Shown piece by piece: positions 4,819 through 43,127 of a stretch of 64,000 nt of DNA. A program made the position numbers and the translations under genes. Position 1 is the first letter of the stretch, and every line of letters starts with the position of its first letter. Source of the DNA: Polyangiaceae bacterium (GTDB lineage: Bacteria; Myxococcota_A; Polyangia; Polyangiales; Polyangiaceae); assembly GCA_016933275.1 (NCBI GenBank), contig JAFGBI010000234.1:1-64000 (forward strand), in the 5' to 3' direction. The notes beneath the pieces were generated by a model. The model was not told where the DNA came from. It saw nothing but the letters and a program-made list of their open reading frames with translations, and searched no databases.

Positions 4819-6441
4819 TCAGAACCCGAGGCGATCGCGCCGCGTCGCGGTCGCCTTCACGGTGTTCGTCGCGGTCGCCTTCGCAGTCGTGGGGGTCGCG
4901 GCGCCGGTCCCGGTCGTGCGCGCGACCCCGGTCGAACGACCGACCCCGGTCGTGCGGGGACCGGCGACCACCACGCCACGCCCGGTGGAGGTGGCGGTTG
5001 CCGTCGCGGTCTCTTTGCCCGTGTCCTTCCCGGTCTCCCTCCCCGTGTCCTTCCCGGTGGCCGCCTCGGATCCCGGCGTGACCGAGACCGTAGCGCTCGC
5101 GGTGCCCCCGGGGCTCCCGTCCGTCGTCGTCACCGTGGCAGGCTCGGTCACGATCGCCAGACCTTCGCCCGCCTCGGCGGAGACCGAGCCTCCTACGGTA
5201 CCTCGCCCCCCAACGACCTGGCTCATGGCAAGGAGAGCGACCCCCACTGCCCCACCGACCAGGACCACGAAACCCAGGATCACGAAGAGCACGAGCGCGA
5301 AGCCGCCTCGCTTGGGGATCCGGATCTCGTCGTTCGCGAGGGCGCTCGTCGTCGTCGCTTGCCCGGTCGTGACCGCCACGGCCGCACCCCCGGACTGGTG
5401 GAGGGGGACCGTGGGTGGATCGGGCTGCGATCCTGAGAGATCGGGATGGGGAGTAACGACGGGAACTGCGGGGGCGTATCCCGGCACCCCCGGTTCGCTC
5501 GCGCGAAATGCCTCCCCGTAGCTGCCGGGACTGAGCGGCGGCCCTCCATCCCCGACCGCCGCGCGCAGGGTGGTCGCGAGCTCTCGGGCGGACTGGAATC
5601 GTCGTGCCGGATCCCGATCCGTGGCTCTGCTCCACCACGCGTCGAACCCCGGGGGCACCGGCCCATGTTGGGACGGCACCGGAATGGGCGAGGCGCAGAT
5701 CTGCATGATGAGCGAGCCGAGCCCATCGGCCTCGAAGGGACGCCGCCCGACCAGACATTCGTACGCGATCACGGCCAGCGCCCAGAGATCCGTCCGCCAA
5801 TCGACCCGCTTGTCCCCCTGCGCCTGCTCGGGGCTCATGTAGTAGGGCGTGCCGAGGACAGCGCCCGTGCGAGTCTTCGAGGTCGAGGCGCCGACCATGC
5901 CGGTGGCTTTCGCGACACCGAAGTCGACCACCTTTACGACCTCTTCGTCCTCGTCGCGCGCGAGGAAAACGTTGTCCGGCTTGAGGTCGCGGTGCACGAT
6001 CTCCGCGGCATGGGCCTTGCCGATCGCCTTGGCGATCTCACCCACGATGCGAGCCGTTTCCGCGGGCAGAAGCCGGCCGCAGCGGGTCAGCCGATCGGCA
6101 AGACTCTCGCCGACCAAGAGCTCCATCACGATGTACGGGATGCCCTCGTCAACCCCGAAGTCGAGGGTCTGCACGACGTTTGGGCTCCGCAACGCTGCGG
6201 CTGCCTGAGCTTCTCGGAGGAAGCGGGCCTGGGCCTCGGGGCTGCTCGCGATCGTGGGATCGATGAGCTTGACGGCCACCGGCGCGTTCAGAGCCAGGTG
6301 CTGGGCCCGCCACACCGAACCCATACCCCCCTGCCCAAGCAGAGACTCCAGGCGATACCGCCCGGATATTACGAGCCCCGGCTCCGGCCCATAGGCTGCC
6401 ACGTTTCCCAAGCTACCCCCGGACGCTCTTCCCTTCAACAC
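4819..6441 (-). CDS. transmembrane Hanks-type Ser/Thr protein kinase
   Basis: Protein of 540 aa. The kinase domain covers residues about 28-290: Gly-rich loop GQGGMGS (36-42), VAVK Lys58, HRDLKPDN (150-157), DFG (173-175) and TPYYMSPEQ activation/P+1 region. All catalytic residues are present, so it should be active. A Pro-rich juxtamembrane region precedes one TM helix (about 381-406). The C-terminal extracytoplasmic part is low in complexity, rich in Thr, Ala, Lys and Gly, with TGKDTGRE-like units, and has no recognised sensor fold. The gene is divergent from the TPR/PEGA-like gene at 6587 across a 145-bp shared upstream region, a pairing that suggests co-regulation. Confidence 0.93.
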   Translation of the reverse strand: MLKGRASGGSLGNVAAYGPEPGLVISGRYRLESLLGQGGMGSVWRAQHLALNAPVAVKLIDPTIASSPEAQARFLREAQAAAALRSPNVVQTLDFGVDEGIPYIVMELLVGESLADRLTRCGRLLPAETARIVGEIAKAIGKAHAAEIVHRDLKPDNVFLARDEDEEVVKVVDFGVAKATGMVGASTSKTRTGAVLGTPYYMSPEQAQGDKRVDWRTDLWALAVIAYECLVGRRPFEADGLGSLIMQICASPIPVPSQHGPVPPGFDAWWSRATDRDPARRFQSARELATTLRAAVGDGGPPLSPGSYGEAFRASEPGVPGYAPAVPVVTPHPDLSGSQPDPPTVPLHQSGGAAVAVTTGQATTTSALANDEIRIPKRGGFALVLFVILGFVVLVGGAVGVALLAMSQVVGGRGTVGGSVSAEAGEGLAIVTEPATVTTTDGSPGGTASATVSVTPGSEAATGKDTGRETGKDTGKETATATATSTGRGVVVAGPRTTGVGRSTGVARTTGTGAATPTTAKATATNTVKATATRRDRLGF

Positions 6442-7686: not shown

Positions 7687-7996
7687 AAAGCAGCAATCAG
7701 GTTGATTGCTGCGTCAAACCGATCGCCTAGCCCGGCGGACCCGGAACCAAACAGGCCATCAGCGGCCAGCGGTCAGGCACAACACGGAGACCCTGATTGC
7801 TGACGCCCGGTTGCTGATGGCCACCAGAACGTCGAAGAACATTCTGCCGGATCGGCTCAGAATCCCACCGCCAACGGACTGGGGCACCGACCCGGCAGCA
7901 GACCTCGTCGGTGGCGGCGCTGGAAACACGCCCTCACCTCGCACAGAGGCGTCCTTTGCGCAGCCGTTGCGGTGGGCAACCCGATCGGTGTCCTAG
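7687..7996 (+). repeat. dispersed structured repeat, copy A (long form)
   Basis: The 5' hairpin GCAGCAATCA / TGATTGCTGC is identical to copies B, C and D. A middle module of about 160 bp is shared only with copy B. The ACCGACCCGGCAGCAGACCTCG block is followed by a decayed internal hairpin (GGAAACACGCC against GGCGTCCTTTG) and the terminal block GGCAACCCGATCGGTG, ending in CTAG. It fills the convergent gap between two genes, and its last bases supply the stop codon of the radical SAM gene. Confidence 0.85.
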
Positions 7997-10476
7997 CCGC
8001 GGCGGTCACGCGATCGCGTGGCGCCCGCCTCCGCGGGCGAGCCGGGATCGGGCTCATCGAGCACCGCCCTGACCCAGCGCTCCGCCGCGGGATCCGTGGA
8101 CGAGGGGAGCGGGAACGCCGCCATCTCGCTTATCATGTCCTCCACGTCCATGCACGAGTACTCCCCGCCCCCGAAGGTCTGCTCCGTGAGGTTCGACATG
8201 CCACCCCCATCGTGGTCCTCGGCCCCATCGGGGATCCCGTCGGCATCCGTGTCGGTGTCGGCAGGATCGGTGCCAAAGATCTCCTCTTCGCACTGATCGG
8301 GCAGGCCATCGCCGTCCGTGTCCTCGAGGGGTGGGGGCGCGTACTCGCTCACCATGTCGAAGACGTCCTCGCATTCACCCACTCCCACCTGCTGCTGTTC
8401 CTCGAGGTTCGTCATCCACCCGTAGTCGTGCTCCTCGTCGCCATCGGGCGTCCCGTCGTGATCGGAGTCCACCTGGTCGGGGTCCGTGCCGAAAATCTCC
8501 TCCTCGCACTGGTCCGGCAGGCCGTCGCCGTCCGTGTCCTCGAGGGGTGGGGGCGCGTACTCGCTCACCATGTCGTGGATGTCGGTGCAGGTTTCACCCG
8601 CCTGGGTCTGCTCCTCCAGGTTGTTCAGCGCTCCGCCGTCGTGGTTCTCGCTGCCGTCCATGACCCCGTCGTCGTCCGTGTCGGCGTCGTTGGGGTCGGT
8701 GCCGAAGATCTCCTCCTCGCATCGGTCGGGGAGGCCGTCGTCGTCGCTGTCCCGCATCGGCGGGGGGGCGTATTCGCTGACGCCCGTGGTCTCGCCCCCA
8801 CAGCTCATCACCGCCGCCGCGATGGTGGCGGCCGCCGCCGTCTGCAGGAGCCGCTGTGCGCGGGTTGCCGGGCCGCGCTGGCACGCGACGGTCCGGGAGC
8901 TGGCGGCGAGCCCGAGCGCGCGAACCTGCTCGCGCAGCGCCAGGCCTTCCTCGAGGAGCGCCGCCCGGCTCGCCCGCTCCCGCGCGACCAACGCCCGCGT
9001 GCGCCGGCGAAGCTCGGGATCGTCGAGCCCCGCGGTCTCGGTCGCGACCTGCACGAGCTCGGAGAGTAGCCCGATGAGATCGCCGTTCACGCGGGTGGTC
9101 CAGTCGGCGACGTGCTTCCGGGCCGCAGCGATGCCGGACCCGCGGTGGTAGTGCCGGAGGACGTTGGCGAGGTGATCCAGCCCAATCGCGATCTCCATCA
9201 GGCTCTCCGTCGCCCAGCAACGGTCCTGGAAGATCCGGGTGGCCAGGCGCGACGCCACGTCGATCCGCGAGTCCGCAATAGAATAGGTGCGAGCGAGGTA
9301 GTCGCCCCGGCCGCGTCCCGCCGCCCGGATGCGCGCCTCGAGGGGTGTCCCCGCGTAGGTCTCCACGCGACAGAAGTTCAGCGGGTGCCCCGCGTGGCGC
9401 CGGAGGAACGCGAGGTCGTCCATCACCGTCTTCACGGTCGCGTCGGGGTGGAAGCACATCAAGGTGTACTGCGCCGAGATGCCGAGCTCGCGACAGAGCT
9501 CCAGAGCGGTTTCCGCCGCCGCGACGTCCGCCTCGCGTCCCCAAGCCCCCGCCGAGCGCCCGATCGAACAGAGCCCCTCCGCGGAGCCGGACTCCACCCC
9601 GAGGAAGACGCGCAGGAGCCCCATCTCGCGGAGTTTCTCGAAGACCGAACGGTCCACGTCCGAGGGGCGGCATTTGATCGTGAACCCAACCCCCTTCAGG
9701 CCGCGCTCGGCCCACCCCAGCCGGAGCGCGTCGAGCCGCTCGTGGTTCCGACGCGTGGACGGCACGAGGAAGTTGTCGTCGTGGAAGATGAACTGGCGGA
9801 CGCCGCGCTCGTGATAAAGCGTGGCCATCTCGTCGAGGACGCTGGTCACGCTGCGCTGCCGAAAGCGAGGCCCGGGCGCCACCCGGTGGAGGGTCACGAT
9901 GCAGCAGTAGTCGCAGCTCGAGTAGCAGCCACGGCTCCCCATCAGGTACGCCGTGCGCACCCCCGCCAGGCGACGCACCGGTCCCCGACGGTCGGGGTGG
10001 GGTAGGCCATCGAGGTCCGTGATGGTGGCCCGCGGCGCCGAGCGTCGGAGCACGGTGCCGTCCCGGTAGACCAGCCCCGCGATGTGCGGGAAGCGCGCCG
10101 GGTCGAACCCCGCCTCGACCAGCTCGACCAGGGCCCGCTCACCCTCGTGCAGCACGATGACATCGATGTCGGGGTGGTGTGCCAACAGCTCCTCGGCGGC
10201 GCAGGTCGCGTAGTGCCCACCCGCCACGACCGGCACCTTCGGCGCGTGGAGCTTGAGCGCCGTGGCCAGGGTCAGAAACTCGCGGGCACGCGCCTGGAAG
10301 CACAGGGACAGCCCGACCGCCTCCGCACGGCGCGCGCCGTCGAGGACGCGCGCGAGGTCGTCGAAGCTGTCGAAGGCCGCAATCTGTACCTGGTGTCCCG
10401 CGGCGAGGAGCGATGACGACAGGTAGCGTAGTGACAGATTCTCTTCCCTTTCGGGACCGACGAGCAAGATGCGCAT
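7993..10476 (-). CDS. B12-binding radical SAM protein fused to tandem acidic repeats
   Basis: Protein of 827 aa with AAGGAG upstream of the ATG. Residues 1-130 resemble a cobalamin-binding Rossmann fold of the BchE class, with VVAGGHYAT. The radical SAM domain (about 175-400) has the [4Fe-4S] motif CYSSCDYC (Cys184, 188, 191) and GVESGS. Residues about 400-530 are a helical C-terminal region. A basic-hydrophobic stretch with a lipobox-like end (LLQTAAAATIAAAVMSC) then leads to repeats of about 72 aa, each opening with SEYAPPP and containing DTDGDGLPD-type thrombospondin-3/calcium-binding motifs. Repeat DNA is near identical (51 bp at 8309-8359 and 8525-8575). The catalytic part suggests methylation or another radical modification; the target is unknown. 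The fused repeats may be substrate or a surface module. Confidence 0.88.
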   Translation of the reverse strand: MRILLVGPEREENLSLRYLSSSLLAAGHQVQIAAFDSFDDLARVLDGARRAEAVGLSLCFQARAREFLTLATALKLHAPKVPVVAGGHYATCAAEELLAHHPDIDVIVLHEGERALVELVEAGFDPARFPHIAGLVYRDGTVLRRSAPRATITDLDGLPHPDRRGPVRRLAGVRTAYLMGSRGCYSSCDYCCIVTLHRVAPGPRFRQRSVTSVLDEMATLYHERGVRQFIFHDDNFLVPSTRRNHERLDALRLGWAERGLKGVGFTIKCRPSDVDRSVFEKLREMGLLRVFLGVESGSAEGLCSIGRSAGAWGREADVAAAETALELCRELGISAQYTLMCFHPDATVKTVMDDLAFLRRHAGHPLNFCRVETYAGTPLEARIRAAGRGRGDYLARTYSIADSRIDVASRLATRIFQDRCWATESLMEIAIGLDHLANVLRHYHRGSGIAAARKHVADWTTRVNGDLIGLLSELVQVATETAGLDDPELRRRTRALVARERASRAALLEEGLALREQVRALGLAASSRTVACQRGPATRAQRLLQTAAAATIAAAVMSCGGETTGVSEYAPPPMRDSDDDGLPDRCEEEIFGTDPNDADTDDDGVMDGSENHDGGALNNLEEQTQAGETCTDIHDMVSEYAPPPLEDTDGDGLPDQCEEEIFGTDPDQVDSDHDGTPDGDEEHDYGWMTNLEEQQQVGVGECEDVFDMVSEYAPPPLEDTDGDGLPDQCEEEIFGTDPADTDTDADGIPDGAEDHDGGGMSNLTEQTFGGGEYSCMDVEDMISEMAAFPLPSSTDPAAERWVRAVLDEPDPGSPAEAGATRSRDRRG
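8000..8790 (-). repeat. tandem 216-bp repeats inside the radical SAM gene
   Basis: Three full units and a degenerate fourth encode SEYAPPP + DxDxDGxxD + EEIFGTDP. Units two and three are offset by exactly 216 nt (72 codons), with 51 identical bases at 8309-8359 and 8525-8575. The identity at DNA level indicates recent duplication or gene conversion. Confidence 0.85.
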
Positions 10477-10563: not shown

Positions 10564-11154
10564 TCACGCAAGACGGCGGAGCGTCACGGCGCGACACCAG
10601 GAGATCCGGAGATGTCCCACCACCTCCAGCCCGGTGCGCCGAGCTGCCGCGAGCATGCTCTCGAAGTCCGCCGCCGACACGTGTCCCCGCGGCTCGGCGA
10701 GGAGCAGTCGGCCTTCGCCAGTAAGGGTCGGCGCAACCTCGCCGAAGAAGGCCTCCGCGTCGGGCAGTTCGTGCACCGTCGCGAAGGCGAGGGCGAAATC
10801 GACCTGGTTCGCGAGATCGGTCACGCCGAGCCGGTGCCGTGGCGATTGTCGGAGCTCCACGCTTCCGAGGAGCCCGGCGCGCCGCAGGCGCCGGCCGAGC
10901 GCGACCAGGAGCTGCGGTTCAAGCTCCGCCGCCACCACGCGACCGCTCGCGCCGACCCGACGGGCGAGCTCGAGGGTGAAGTAGCCATTGCCTGGCCCGG
11001 GCTCGAGCACCGTCATGCCCGGCCCGACGAAGGGCGCCACGACTGGCCCGGGTTCGTGCACCAGGCGCCGGACCGGACATGCAACGAGGTTGCCAAGCCA
11101 CGAGGGGTAAACGTACGGGGATCCTCGGCGGGCGGATTGGGGAAGGTCGGCCAT
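10564..11154 (-). CDS. class I SAM-dependent methyltransferase
   Basis: Protein of 196 aa with a Rossmann methyltransferase fold. Motif I is VLEPGPGNGYFTLELA (about 50-65), motif II an acidic residue in VVAAELEPQLL, and motif IV about VDFALAFATVHELPD. The small size and the GMTVLEPGPGNG signature resemble UbiE/Methyltransf_11-type enzymes. The N-terminal PSWLGNLVACPVRRLVHEP is also seen in methyltransferases acting on small or lipid substrates. It follows the radical SAM gene's start region on the same strand with 87 bp between them, and could be an upstream partner in its operon. The substrate is unknown. Confidence 0.82.
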   Translation of the reverse strand: MADLPQSARRGSPYVYPSWLGNLVACPVRRLVHEPGPVVAPFVGPGMTVLEPGPGNGYFTLELARRVGASGRVVAAELEPQLLVALGRRLRRAGLLGSVELRQSPRHRLGVTDLANQVDFALAFATVHELPDAEAFFGEVAPTLTGEGRLLLAEPRGHVSAADFESMLAAARRTGLEVVGHLRISWCRAVTLRRLA

Positions 11155-38268: not shown

Positions 38269-39738
38269 CTACCCTCCCGGCACCACGGCGTTCGTGAGGT
38301 CGCTCCGGCGCTTGCCGGCGAGGTACTCGGCGATGTTGCCGAGCGTCGTCTCGGCGATATTGGCAAGCGCCTCCTCCGTGAGAAACCCCTGGTGGCTGGT
38401 GATGATCACGTTATTGAACGTCATCAGGCGGGCGAGTAGGTCGTCGGTGATCACCCGGTCGGAGCGATCCTGGAAGAAGTACTCGCTCTCCTCCTCGTAC
38501 ACGTCGAGCCCGGCCGCGCCGATGTGCCCGGTCTTGAGCCCCCGCACGAGGGCCGTCGAGTCGATGAGACCGCCGCGGCTCGTGTTGATCAGGACCACGC
38601 CGGGCCGCATCCGCTCGATGCGCTCGGCGTCGACCAGGTGGTGGGTGGCGGGAGTGAGCGGCGCGTGGAGGCTGACCACGTGCGAACGGACGAGGAGCTC
38701 GTCGAGCTCGACCAGGGAGACCCCGAGCTCCACCGCGGTCTCCGGGCGGGCGAACGCATCGTGGGCGAGCACGGTCATGCCAAAGCCACGCAGGATCCGG
38801 GCGAGGCACTGCCCGATCCTGCCGAGACCGACCAGCCCCGCCGTGCGCCCGTGGAGATCGAAACCAACCAGGCCCGCCAGGCTGAAGTTGCCCTCTCGAA
38901 CCCGACCGTGAGCACGGTGCACCTTGCGGTCCAGGGCAAGGATGAGCGCCACCGCATGCTCGGCCACGGCGTGGGGCGAGTAGGCGGGGACTCGGGTGAC
39001 GGAGAGCCCAAGGCGAGCAGCAGCGTCGAGGTCAACGTTGTTGTAGCCCGCGCAGCGCATGGCGATGAGCTCGACCCCGGCCAGCGATAGCCGCTCGAGC
39101 ACGGGAGCACCCAGGTCGTCGCCGACAAAGGCGCAGACCACGCGGAACCCATGGGCGAGCGCGGCCGTCGTGGGGCCGAGTCGCGCTTCGAGGTAGTGCA
39201 GGCGCATGCCCGCCGGGACGCGAGCGTCGAAGCTCTGCCGATCGTAGGGCTTGGCGTCGAAGAACGCGATGCCGATGCGTCCGTCCGGGAGCGCAGCGGC
39301 CTCCAGGGTGGCGATCCGTTGGTTCTTGGCGCGCACCTTCGCGCCGAGGTGCGCGAGGATCGCGCGGCCGAGCTCGGCGTGCGAGCCCAGCAGGACAAGG
39401 AAATCCTGCCGAGCAACGGTGACCAGGACCGACTCGACGCGAGCGCGGAGCGTCGCCGAGCGCCCCTGCTCGAGCGCAACGCTGGTCAAGCCGCCGACGT
39501 CGCCGACGCCGAGCAGGCGGAGCGGTACGTCCGCGCCCTGATCCGAGCGCTTGGTGGCTTCGACCACCCCCCGCGCCACCACGAACACGTAGTCGCTCGG
39601 CTCTCCCTCGCGGAAGACGAGATCCCCAGCCGGAATGACGCGCCGCTCGGCCACAGCCGAAATGGCAAGCCGGGTCGCCGACGTGAGACCGGCAAACACC
39701 TCGGCTCGATCGAGCAGGTCCAGGGTTGAGTCGGCCAT
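38269..39738 (-). CDS. cNMP-binding domain fused to D-2-hydroxyacid dehydrogenase
   Basis: Protein of 489 aa from ATG 39738, which has GAGG six bases upstream; the track ATG ten codons earlier lacks a site. Residues about 5-125 are a cyclic-nucleotide-binding beta-barrel (LLDRAEVFAGLTSATRLAI, FREGEPSDYVFVVARGVVE). Residues about 155-489 are an LdhA-type D-isomer dehydrogenase: RCAGYNNVDLDAAARLGLSV, Rossmann GLVGLGRIGQ, SRGGLIDS (catalytic Arg region), DVYEEESEYFF and HQGFLTEEAL (catalytic His). It would reduce pyruvate or a similar 2-oxoacid with NADH. The fusion suggests that cAMP or another ligand directly gates a fermentative or redox enzyme, which is unusual. Confidence 0.88.
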   Translation of the reverse strand: MADSTLDLLDRAEVFAGLTSATRLAISAVAERRVIPAGDLVFREGEPSDYVFVVARGVVEATKRSDQGADVPLRLLGVGDVGGLTSVALEQGRSATLRARVESVLVTVARQDFLVLLGSHAELGRAILAHLGAKVRAKNQRIATLEAAALPDGRIGIAFFDAKPYDRQSFDARVPAGMRLHYLEARLGPTTAALAHGFRVVCAFVGDDLGAPVLERLSLAGVELIAMRCAGYNNVDLDAAARLGLSVTRVPAYSPHAVAEHAVALILALDRKVHRAHGRVREGNFSLAGLVGFDLHGRTAGLVGLGRIGQCLARILRGFGMTVLAHDAFARPETAVELGVSLVELDELLVRSHVVSLHAPLTPATHHLVDAERIERMRPGVVLINTSRGGLIDSTALVRGLKTGHIGAAGLDVYEEESEYFFQDRSDRVITDDLLARLMTFNNVIITSHQGFLTEEALANIAETTLGNIAEYLAGKRRSDLTNAVVPGG

Positions 39739-39848
39739 TTCGGACCTCGTCGGGGCTTCGGGCGTCATCGGCTCGGAAGAGTCATGCGTCCACCGCTAGG
39801 GGATGGCAAGCATCGAACCGGCCCTTCGTCTCGAGCTTGCCGCGATCC

Positions 39849-40045
39849 TGCCTCAGCGAGGCGCAGTGGCTGCTCGTGATCCGTCGTCATTGGGGCGTCG
39901 AAACCGCCCACCAGATCCTCGATGTTGCCCTGGCCGAGGACGACCGCCCGTGGATCGAGGCGAACCCGAGAGGTGCACTGGCGTCGCAATCCCTCGTCGC
40001 CTGGCGCAGTCGAGTAGGGGCGCCCTTGCTCGTGGCTGAGGACCC
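39849..40045 (+). pseudogene. transposase remnant
   Basis: CLSEAQWLLVIRRHWGVE followed by ILDVALAEDDRPWIEANPRGAL matches the conserved C-terminal part of DDE transposases (RxHWxVE...EDDxPWxEANPRGAL...). The expected continuation (AIPRRLAQ, like AILRRLAY) appears in another frame, so a frameshift has occurred. No N-terminal part, inverted repeats or target duplication are visible. It marks an old insertion between the dehydrogenase and the RCC1 gene. Confidence 0.7.
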
Positions 40046-40346
40046 CGCTCACAGAACCGGGCTTGCGGGCCGCACATCCGGCTCTTCGGGATGCCGACGT
40101 CCTCGGATCGTCCGCGGGCAGCATGCTCGCCGCGCGCGGCCGGTGAGGCGAGGAGTCCGGCCCCGCCTACCCCGTCCGGCCCCAGATCCCAAAGGCTCGC
40201 GCAGCGAGCCACCGATCGAGATGGTGCGCGGCTCCGGCACCGTTGCGACGAGGTTCGGGCGACGGTACCCTTCGGCACGGCTGGCAGATCGTAGACCAAC
40301 GCCCTGGGCGCGGAGCCCGAAGGGGCCACGAGACGGGATCGATGCC

Positions 40347-43127
40347 ATGACCACTGCACGCGATGGCGGGGGTGCGACGCGTGACCGCGACGGCAGGGTT
40401 CTGCGCTTCGGCGCGGTGCCCCTCGGCGTCGTCCTCACGCTGGGCTGCGGCAGGTCGAGCGTGGTCGAGGAGTATCTCCGGACGACGGGGGCGATCGCCG
40501 GGGCTCCCACCGGATCTGTTGGCGCGAGCCCGACAGCAGGTGGCGCGCCAACCACGGGGGGAGGGACCGGGGGGCAAGCGAGCGGCGGCGTGGCCGTGGG
40601 GAGCTCGACCGGCGGAATGACTGCCGGCGGGGTCGCGCCAGGCGGGACCGTGGCCGCTGGTGGCCACGAAGGCGGCAGCGGTAGCCAGGCCGGGGGCGGC
40701 GGGTTCGTGATCCACGCCGGCGCCGCCGGCGAGGCGGGGACGCCGATTGGCGGGGGGACCGCGGGGATTGCCAGCGGAGCGGTTGGAACGGGTGCGGCGG
40801 GCGAAGCGGGTGCGGCGGGCGGAGGCAACGTCCCATCGTGTCCCGCCGGCACCTTCGAGCACGACGGGGATCCCAGCACCCATTGCGTGCCCTGGACGAA
40901 CTGCGAACGAGGCAGCCACGTCGCGAGCGAGGCGAGTCCATCGAGCGACCGGACCTGCCGCTTCTGCACCGACGGCTACAGCACGGAGACCAACGCCGCG
41001 AGCTGTCTGCCCTGGAGCAACTGCCCGACGGGCACGACGGTGCCGCGGACCTCGACGGCGGACGCTCCCTGCGCCGCCGGGATCGCTCGCGTGGCGGCGG
41101 GCGGTCGCAGCAGCTGCGTGCTCCGTCACGACGGCACGGTCGCCTGCTGGGGCCTGCTCCGCGGCTGGCCCGCCGAGTGGGAGACGAGCGCGATTCGCAC
41201 CGCGCCCGTGACCGTGCCTGGCGTGACCAGCGCCACGACGATCGCCACGAACGACGGCCGCACCTGCGTGCTCCTCGAGGACGGCACCGTCGCCTGCATC
41301 GCCGACGGCGCCTATGCCATCGTCCCCGGGATCGCCGGCGCGGTCGCGCTCGACACCGGCGACGACCATTCCTGCGCCCTGCTGGCAGACGGCACCGTCG
41401 CCTGCTGGGGCGCTAACGTGTACGGCGAGCTCGGCGACGGGACCACGACCCACAGCTCCACTCCCGTGACCGTGGTCGGGCTCGATGACGCCATCGCCAT
41501 CACGACCGCCGAATTCCATTCCTGCGCTCTACGCGACGGCGGCACCGTCGTCTGTTGGGGCGCCAATGCCTACGGCGAGCTCGGCGACGGGACCACGACC
41601 CACAGCTCCAGTCCCGTGACCGTGGTCGGCATCACCGCGGCCACTGCGATCTCCAATGGCTCCGCCCACACCTGCGCCGTGACGGGTGACGGGTCGGTGT
41701 CCTGTTGGGGCAACAACGGGAATGGCCGGCTCGGCGACGGGACGAGCGCGAACAGCTCGGTTCCGGTCACCGTGATCGGCCTCTCCGAGATAGCGGACGT
41801 CTCGGCCGGCTTCGCCCACACCTGCGCCCTCGGCCGCGACGGCGCCGTCGCCTGCTGGGGAACCAACCTGGAGGGACAGCTCGGCGACGGCACCTACCGG
41901 ACGAGATCCACCCCGGTCCCCGCCGTCGGCGGAGTCGCCGCGGTCTCTGCTGGCGGGTTCCATACCTGTGCCTTGAACCAAGATGGCACGGTGAGCTGCT
42001 GGGGGAGCGGAGACACCGGCGAGCTCGGAAACGGCTGCTCCGTGCAGACCGCTGCCCCCACCAAGGTGCTGGGCCTCTCCGCCGCCATCGCGATCGCGGC
42101 AGCCGCGTATCACACTTGCACCGTCCTCTCGGAGGGTGAGGTCACCTGTTGGGGTGACAACGGCCTCGGCCAGCTCGGCGTCGAGGCCAAGATGGCCAGC
42201 GACGTGCCGATCACCATCCCTGGGCTGGCGGGAGTATCCACGATCACGGCAGGCCACCTCCACACCTGTGCCTTGCGGCAGAACGGCGGGGTCGCCTGCT
42301 GGGGGCACAACGGACACGGTAAGCTCGGCGATGGAACGACGGTGGACAAGGACACGCCGGTCGCCGTCGTCGATCTCGACGACGCCACCACGGTTGCCGG
42401 TGGCAGCGAGCACACCTGCGCCTCGCGCGCCAACGGCGCGGTCGCCTGCTGGGGGAGCAACGGTTTCGGCCAACTCGGCGACGGCTCCACCACGGACCGC
42501 CTGACGCCCGTGGCCGCCTCTGGCGTCGACGACGCGATCGCGGTCGCCAGCGGCAACGGCCACACCTGCGCCCTGCGAAGGGTCGGCTCCGTCGCCTGCT
42601 GGGGCAACAACGACTCGGGACAGCTCGGCGACGGAACCACCGTGGGCAGCCCGGTGCCGGTCGCGGTCGGTGGTTTGGGTGATGCCCTTGCCCTCGCAGC
42701 CAACGGCGCACACACCTGCGCCCTGCATCGGGGTGGGGCGGTGGTCTGCTGGGGTAGGAACGACTCGGGACAGCTCGGCGACGAAACCGGCGGGGACAGC
42801 CCGACGCCCGTGGCGGTCATCGGTGTCGACGACGCGACCGCCCTCGACGCCGGACCGGCTCACACCTGCGCAGCGCGCCGTGACGGCTCGGTCGCCTGTT
42901 GGGGCAACAACGATGCGGCCCAGCTCGGCGACGGTTCCACCACGGACCGCAACCACGCCGTGGCCGTCGATACCCTCACCGCCGCCATCGCCGTGACCAC
43001 CGGCACCTCCCACAGCTGTGCGCTTCGCCAGAACGGCGAAGCCATCTGCTGGGGGAACAACGAGTTCGGCCACCTCGGCTGTGGGGTCATCAGGTCCAGT
43101 ACTCCGCTGCCCATGCGCTGGCCATAG
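40347..43127 (+). CDS. RCC1-repeat surface lipoprotein
   Basis: Protein of 926 aa; ATG 40347 replaces the track start at 39726, which reads through the transposase remnant. Signal peptide with lipobox LGVVLTLGC, then a Gly/Ala/Thr-rich linker of about 120 residues (GGTGGQASGG-type). A Cys-rich module with CPAGTFEHDG and CVPWTNCERG resembles EGF/TNFR-like repeats. From about residue 245 there are at least a dozen RCC1 blades of about 50 aa with the consensus CALRxDGTVACWGxNxxGQLGDG. Together they could form two seven-bladed propellers for protein or glycan binding at the surface. Two neighbouring blades are almost identical in DNA, which implies recent duplication. Confidence 0.88.
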   Translation: MTTARDGGGATRDRDGRVLRFGAVPLGVVLTLGCGRSSVVEEYLRTTGAIAGAPTGSVGASPTAGGAPTTGGGTGGQASGGVAVGSSTGGMTAGGVAPGGTVAAGGHEGGSGSQAGGGGFVIHAGAAGEAGTPIGGGTAGIASGAVGTGAAGEAGAAGGGNVPSCPAGTFEHDGDPSTHCVPWTNCERGSHVASEASPSSDRTCRFCTDGYSTETNAASCLPWSNCPTGTTVPRTSTADAPCAAGIARVAAGGRSSCVLRHDGTVACWGLLRGWPAEWETSAIRTAPVTVPGVTSATTIATNDGRTCVLLEDGTVACIADGAYAIVPGIAGAVALDTGDDHSCALLADGTVACWGANVYGELGDGTTTHSSTPVTVVGLDDAIAITTAEFHSCALRDGGTVVCWGANAYGELGDGTTTHSSSPVTVVGITAATAISNGSAHTCAVTGDGSVSCWGNNGNGRLGDGTSANSSVPVTVIGLSEIADVSAGFAHTCALGRDGAVACWGTNLEGQLGDGTYRTRSTPVPAVGGVAAVSAGGFHTCALNQDGTVSCWGSGDTGELGNGCSVQTAAPTKVLGLSAAIAIAAAAYHTCTVLSEGEVTCWGDNGLGQLGVEAKMASDVPITIPGLAGVSTITAGHLHTCALRQNGGVACWGHNGHGKLGDGTTVDKDTPVAVVDLDDATTVAGGSEHTCASRANGAVACWGSNGFGQLGDGSTTDRLTPVAASGVDDAIAVASGNGHTCALRRVGSVACWGNNDSGQLGDGTTVGSPVPVAVGGLGDALALAANGAHTCALHRGGAVVCWGRNDSGQLGDETGGDSPTPVAVIGVDDATALDAGPAHTCAARRDGSVACWGNNDAAQLGDGSTTDRNHAVAVDTLTAAIAVTTGTSHSCALRQNGEAICWGNNEFGHLGCGVIRSSTPLPMRWP
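41421..41629 (+). repeat. near-identical RCC1 blade duplication
   Basis: 59 bp starting TACGGCGAGCTCGGCGACGG at 41421 recur at 41571 with one mismatch, exactly 150 bp (50 codons) apart. Other blades in the gene are much more divergent, so this pair arose recently. Confidence 0.85.

Follow-up and report, generated by a model that had tools for sequence, protein, structure and literature searches.

An enzyme and a repeat-bearing tail in one gene

The window, by which we mean the whole 64,000-nt stretch of DNA analyzed here, comes from a draft assembly of 464 contigs (8.25 Mb). On its minus strand, positions 7993–10476 hold a complete gene of 827 aa, read in one frame from an ATG start to a TAG stop, in which a B12-binding/radical SAM enzyme (residues 1 to ~530) is followed by a hydrophobic segment leading to Cys559 and then by three repeats, each made up of SEYAPPP and a TSP3-type acidic repeat. 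GC3 is 0.82–0.95 over the entire ORF, the junction included, and with this uninterrupted high level the frame is coding throughout. The first-pass annotation had seen a B12-radical SAM enzyme and SEYAPPP repeats in one protein, which the single frame and the Pfam domains confirm.

Both enzyme domains exceed the Pfam gathering scores: the B12-binding domain at residues 12–119 (10120–10443, minus strand, as for all features of this gene; PF02310, E 3e-16) and the radical SAM core at residues 181–355 (9412–9936; PF04055, E 8e-14). The cluster ligands of the CxxxCxxC motif (C184, C188 and C191; 9904–9927) are invariant in all 48 aligned rows. The DxHxxG cobalamin-ligand motif is missing, and a conserved G-x-x-x-E-E-N-L stands in its place; DxHxxG is also absent from some B12-radical SAM enzymes. 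A Foldseek search with residues 1 to ~530 returned TsrM, OxsB, TokK, CysS and MgmA at E 1e-15 to 1e-18 (MgmA 2e-16), structures to which the window enzyme is 15–20% identical. These proteins share the fold; they have other substrates, and none is fused to a lipoprotein. By its domains, CxxxCxxC motif and fold, the enzyme is of the cobalamin-dependent (class B) radical SAM type, with predicted cobalamin binding.

The best NCBIfam match was the ApyD family (NF050148; 91.3 bits, curated cut-off 750), with HpnJ at 78, HpnR at 76 and BchE at 75 bits, and the RiPP maturation radical SAM C-methyltransferase family (TIGR03975) scored 55.4 bits, under its curated cut-off of 281.85. No NCBIfam equivalog cut-off was reached by the enzyme, and a PHROGs search with it gave no matches. 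Since the scores for RiPP enzymes are little above those for lipid and porphyrin enzymes, the enzyme part by itself does not imply a peptide substrate.

The enzyme part closes with a helical region (residues 403–533; 8878–9270) in an AlphaFold2 model of the fused protein whose pLDDT mostly exceeds 90 as far as about residue 520. Beyond it lies the hydrophobic segment LLQTAAAATIAAAVMSC (residues 541–559; 8800–8856), which ends in the lipobox-like Cys559 and is modelled as a helix over residues 539–558. The remainder of the tail is disordered in the model, at a pLDDT of about 30, and is not seen docked in the active site.

Repeat 1 (8566–8778) opens with SEYAPPPMRD and continues into a TSP3-type acidic repeat recognized by TSP3_bac (PF18884). 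By sequence, repeats 2 (8350–8565) and 3 (8131–8349) both open with SEYAPPPLED ahead of a TSP3-type repeat, and a degenerate fourth start, SEMAAFP, begins the C-terminal end (7996–8130). The SEYAPPP starts fall at residues 567, 638 and 710, and SEMAAFP at 783. The repeats had been described as nearly identical in DNA, which overstates an identity that we measured at 71–78% (65–75% in protein). Of the described pattern, the SEYAPPP start is present in all three repeats, while the DTDGDG loop is lacking in repeat 1, which reads DSDDDG. Three copies of EYAPPP in the window tail compare with 0.01 expected from shuffled tails. Free SEYAPPP repeats had been proposed as a check, and we searched the organism's own 8.25-Mb genome for the EYAPPP DNA pattern: it occurs solely at these three places, so that there is no free EYAPPP gene elsewhere in this genome, and a reversed control of the pattern had zero occurrences.

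Other features of the window can be noted briefly. A class I SAM methyltransferase gene (10564–11154, minus strand) ends 87 bp upstream of the fused gene on the same strand; it is not kept beside relatives of the fused gene. No RNA elements were found near the fused gene, apart from a tRNA at 2259. At 4819–6441 (minus strand) lies a Ser/Thr protein kinase that has a hydrophobic segment and a C-terminus of low complexity, rich in Thr, Ala and Gly, and at 39726–43124 (plus strand) a 1133-aa protein with a dozen RCC1 repeats, containing 150-bp tandem arrays at 41388–41743 and 42261–42941.

Fused homologues and the junction

We found 39 further homologues that carry a tail at the same junction, among them a paralogue in the same genome and sequences from Acidobacteriota and Spirochaetota. 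On a tree of 64 enzymes, 40 are fused, including the window; these come from Myxococcota, Acidobacteriota, Spirochaetota and one contig titled Proteobacteria. The fused or tail-less state requires 4 changes on this tree, compared to 19.5 with shuffled labels, and the window sits within a 9-row, all-fused clade with an SH-aLRT of 100. Close relatives, 49–53% identical, are found on contigs of two Acidobacteria, two Spirochaetes, one Polyangiaceae and one 'Proteobacteria' MAG. Homologues at E ~1e-55 or better are present in 34 of 379 Myxococcota genomes, and at 1e-30 in 39, a count that takes in some more distant B12-radical SAM proteins; such tallies rest on genome samples and on single-sequence or one profile query.

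The paralogue in the same genome (contig C402; L004, L107) is 35% identical in its enzyme part and is also fused, with a hydrophobic segment, a Cys and repeated DPxPx motifs after the enzyme. A second paralogue in this genome (L050; G000:C464:1766-2860), 61% identical, lies on a 3-kb contig whose end cuts the gene.

Of 36 fused rows, 32 have a Cys at the position of Cys559, which bears out the description of the hydrophobic segment as ending like a lipobox. Upstream of this Cys the segment is Ala/Leu-rich, usually with an Arg, and its modest hydrophobicity resembles that of lipoprotein signals. We read it as a lipoprotein signal with a lipobox Cys ahead of the motif region, at which lipidation is predicted. 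The signal is internal in the fused form (residues 541–559) and N-terminal in split relatives. We also asked whether the tail might be translated separately, from a start inside the gene. No in-frame start precedes the hydrophobic segment in the window, the sole one being a GTG-ATG inside the lipobox, and for 6 of 35 other fused genes the 35 codons ahead of the segment contain none, so that this is not a general rule.

Tail motifs and neighboring lipoprotein genes

The exported domains of the tails vary. They comprise TSP3, Ig-like, the AgmX/PglI C-terminal domain (L051), TonB-C-like, ASH-like and ankyrin repeats, the last three assigned partly by eye. TSP3 occurs in the window tail, and similar acidic repeats occur in the Spirochaetes sequences L012 and L015. 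The gliding lipoprotein family CglD (NF033765; curated cut-off 400) scored 58–65 bits, from TSP3-like repeats only. A short acidic-Pro motif recurs across these tails in forms such as SEYAPPP, SEMAAPPI, CEYAAAPM, IEAPPPPMD, FEAPPPPM, SEFAQPPP, EMAPAP, MVVDPPPPD and VVDPLPPD. The proposed SEYAPPP/calcium-type tail holds in the window; family-wide, the motif is broader and TSP3 is one of several exported domains.

Compared to composition-preserving shuffles of 38 tails, DPxPx was seen 103 times against 9.6 expected and the E-[YMFA]-[AV]-x-P-P type 17 times against 0.2, statistics that count related sequences more than once as the tails share ancestry. Motif density was 16.3 per 1000 aa in tails and 0.11 in enzyme parts. 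Four full tails (L012, L015, L049 and L117) have no motif by the patterns used, and the tail of L013 is cut by a contig end. One fused protein, L151, contains HPTEMAPVP, HEMAPMPP and REYAPRPP and thereby bridges EYAPPP and AEMAPTP, the latter a motif of the split lipoproteins described next.

The tail is absent in two clades and in single cases. Beside 24 of 27 tail-less enzymes we found a same-strand gene for a motif-bearing lipoprotein (e.g., YGVVDPMPPP or AEMAPTPI), and several of these enzyme/lipoprotein gene pairs overlap by 4 bases. Those without a partner are L094, L120 and L059, the last on a contig of 7.5 kb. Five loci from a family-wide search made after this rule was formulated (L148, L150, L153, L154 and L155) all have the partner. 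Apart from the lipoprotein gene, nothing is conserved among the neighbors of the relatives.

In the first split clade (L064, L066, L067, L069, L073, L076, L082, L086, L100, L121 and L075), the partners are small lipoprotein genes whose products start VRxRTLxHL..., followed by a Cys and then by YGVVDPMPPP-type motifs; L075 belongs to the same genome as the window, and its lipoprotein motif is CDPAPEPDC. At one locus (L100:1759-4330, plus strand; G351:C467), five tandem motif-bearing small lipoprotein genes stand behind one enzyme gene, an array suited to a study of substrate tolerance. In the second split clade (L078, L089, L092, L095, L097, L131 and L132), the lipoprotein gene is upstream and its product follows WxSSGxxCxxC....E[MK][AVI][APC]xP[IL]. 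Within E-[MK]-[AVI]-[APC]-x-P, which has the spacing of EYAPPP, neither the E nor the P varies among these split lipoproteins. At L062 the lipoprotein gene is downstream and its product contains DDPLPKP.

Comparison by hhalign relates the Ig-like domain of the second-clade lipoproteins to the domain at the C-terminus of some fused tails (probability 94%, E 9e-8), two other comparisons being weaker. The split lipoproteins match no Pfam or NCBIfam family above cut-off; one has PKD at E 0.003 as well as other sub-threshold matches. A model of a split lipoprotein shows two beta domains with the motif in the low-confidence linker that joins them, and a fold search gave weak Ig/cadherin-type matches with low TM-scores, which we take as beta-sandwich-like at most. 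As the motif and the Ig-like domain are common to the fused tails and the neighboring lipoproteins, enzyme and lipoprotein form a pair that is encoded in cis or in trans.

A candidate substrate and the alternatives

We think it probable that the fused gene encodes an enzyme together with its substrate: the radical enzyme would modify the acidic-Pro motif, and the tail would then be exported as a lipoprotein, with the target, chemistry, lipidation and cleavage all predicted. Fusion in some lineages, tight linkage in others and one common motif make enzyme and substrate the simplest account. Among the three readings offered by the first-pass annotation, the enzyme carrying its own multi-core substrate is the best supported, because motif-bearing lipoprotein genes adjoin the tail-less relatives.

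A cytosolic iron-sulfur enzyme could reach the motif only before export, and modification would therefore precede export and lipidation. Working in the cytosol, the enzyme would modify motifs in its own tail or in that of a sister molecule, in the order of translation, radical modification, and export with lipidation at the Cys, the fused chain being cleaved or not; signal peptidase II may free the modified tail from the enzyme. Relatives would produce the same pair from two adjacent genes. More tentatively, and with less confidence than in the pairing itself, we hypothesize a self-processing polyprotein, in which several tail motifs are modified, signal peptidase II cuts the internal lipobox, the enzyme stays cytosolic and the lipidated tail goes to the surface; such a polyprotein might be widespread across Myxococcota, other lineages having it split into two genes.

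Our first guess for the chemistry is C-methylation close to the acidic residue or to the prolines. ApyD beta-methylates Tyr (PMC10635010) and BipD forms a biaryl bond (PMC12707348), and since their folds are similar and their chemistry differs, the reaction is not predictable from sequence. Both are B12-radical SAM enzymes of RiPP pathways and thus of the same enzyme class as ours (PMC10635010, PMC12707348); their systems differ in having separate precursors and extra tailoring enzymes, and the ApyD match falls at 91 bits against a cut-off of 750. Tyr is unlikely to be the general target, because Met, Phe or Lys replace it in relatives; the constant part of the motif is the acidic residue and the prolines.

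Against the enzyme–substrate reading, the TSP3 region could serve only as a surface domain that binds calcium, with the Pro motif as a spacer, and a large folded enzyme preceding a lipoprotein signal is unusual. The strongest alternative, which we nevertheless regard as unlikely, is a membrane-tethered enzyme, which corresponds to the membrane-anchored modifying enzyme among the three readings of the first-pass annotation. It would be held by an uncut anchor on the inner membrane face and act on a lipid or other protein substrate, with a tail that would serve only as an outer sensor, anchor or adhesion domain. The modelled helix at 539–558 is consistent with an anchor, the lipid enzymes HpnJ and HpnR are nearly as close as the RiPP enzymes, and the tails contain exported domains (TSP3, Ig-like, AgmX/PglI C-terminal). 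However, a tethered enzyme leaves unexplained the separate motif-lipoprotein beside tail-less enzymes, the five lipoprotein genes with one enzyme at L100 and the repetition of the motif, and the segment itself is modestly hydrophobic, Ala-rich and Cys-ended in 32 of 36 rows, as in lipoprotein signals.

We consider it improbable, to a greater degree, that the lipoprotein is a partner of the enzyme and not its substrate, the two serving a common third molecule or surface complex, with the Pro motif binding a periplasmic or surface partner. Linkage and fusion as such indicate a functional association and not an enzyme–substrate relation. Yet a cytosolic enzyme and an exported lipoprotein have no common compartment afterwards, so that contact is best made before export, and modified cores typically take the form of such a short, invariant motif placed in an accessible linker.

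That an ordinary Pro-rich surface protein acquired the enzyme by chance, its motifs being composition noise, seems very improbable: tails reach 44% Pro and DPLPP arises easily, but in 26 of 38 tails the motifs outnumber those of composition-matched shuffles at p < 0.01, again with related sequences counted more than once, and these include tails with just 8–12% Pro, and the same motif classes reappear in trans. A sequencing or assembly artefact, in which a lost stop or frameshift joined two adjoining genes, might be suspected in a draft genome of 464 contigs and is rejected because independent genomes have forty fused cases with the same junction, because the coding GC3 is continuous, and because 6 of 35 other fused genes lack an in-frame start in the 35 codons before the segment. 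The suggestion of a fusion by stop loss accordingly fails as an error, given 39 other fused homologues, and probably holds as a gene fusion in evolution, since fused and separate forms occur on one tree. An error had been tied to homologues that are always separate and unlinked; those we found are fused or linked.

If the fused gene encodes enzyme and substrate, it shares with RiPP systems in general a precursor with a conserved short core motif encoded together with the enzyme. In Bacteroidetes, the TIGR04133/TIGR04134 systems have a radical SAM gene of a different subclass adjoining a lipoprotein gene; neither TIGR04133 nor TIGR04134 appeared in our NCBIfam scans. DAG-RiPPs, reported in 2025, are RiPP-lipoprotein hybrids of MNIO enzymes, found by mining applied to MNIOs only (PMC12636315). 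There, too, a modifying enzyme adjoins a small lipoprotein precursor with a short conserved, sometimes repeated motif, and modification is expected in the cytosol ahead of signal peptidase II processing (PMC12636315), whereas here the enzyme is a B12-type radical SAM protein and not an MNIO, the precursor is mostly fused and lipidation is predicted from sequence.

Borosins, with fused types I–III and a split type IV, likewise join an N-terminal enzyme and a C-terminal substrate in a single chain and have split counterparts in other lineages (PMC8429565). Their enzyme, however, is a backbone N-methyltransferase and not a radical SAM protein, and there is no lipoprotein signal between the parts; the window protein has no Pfam match to an alpha-N-methyltransferase domain. 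The BURP-domain cyclases of burpitides also occur in fused (autocatalytic) and split forms, as parallel pathways with multi-core substrates (PMC12186524), but these are plant copper enzymes with cross-linking chemistry and no lipoprotein. The window gene works like a fused-precursor RiPP-lipoprotein system and is a member of no tested family. We found no description of such an enzyme–lipoprotein pair in the literature, where subscription papers may hold an earlier account.

The pairing offers a candidate substrate for a large, uncharacterized group of B12-radical SAM enzymes: in cis it is read directly off the gene, and a matching trans form lends itself to in vitro work. If the reading is right, the fused-precursor RiPP logic of borosins and burpitides would reach radical SAM chemistry as well, and RiPP-lipoprotein hybrids would extend past MNIO enzymes. 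The pairing also poses a question of cell biology, namely whether signal peptidase II is able to act on a lipobox preceded by a folded enzyme of 540 residues.

A more distant B12-radical SAM clade (L101, L102, L103 and L132:2991-5240, plus strand) is likewise fused. L102, L103 and L132 have a hydrophobic segment with a Cys, and the tails of L101–L103 have a terminal domain with F-P-C-[LM]-A near the C-terminus and no Pro motif. Enzymes of this class may be joined to lipoprotein-like tails more generally.
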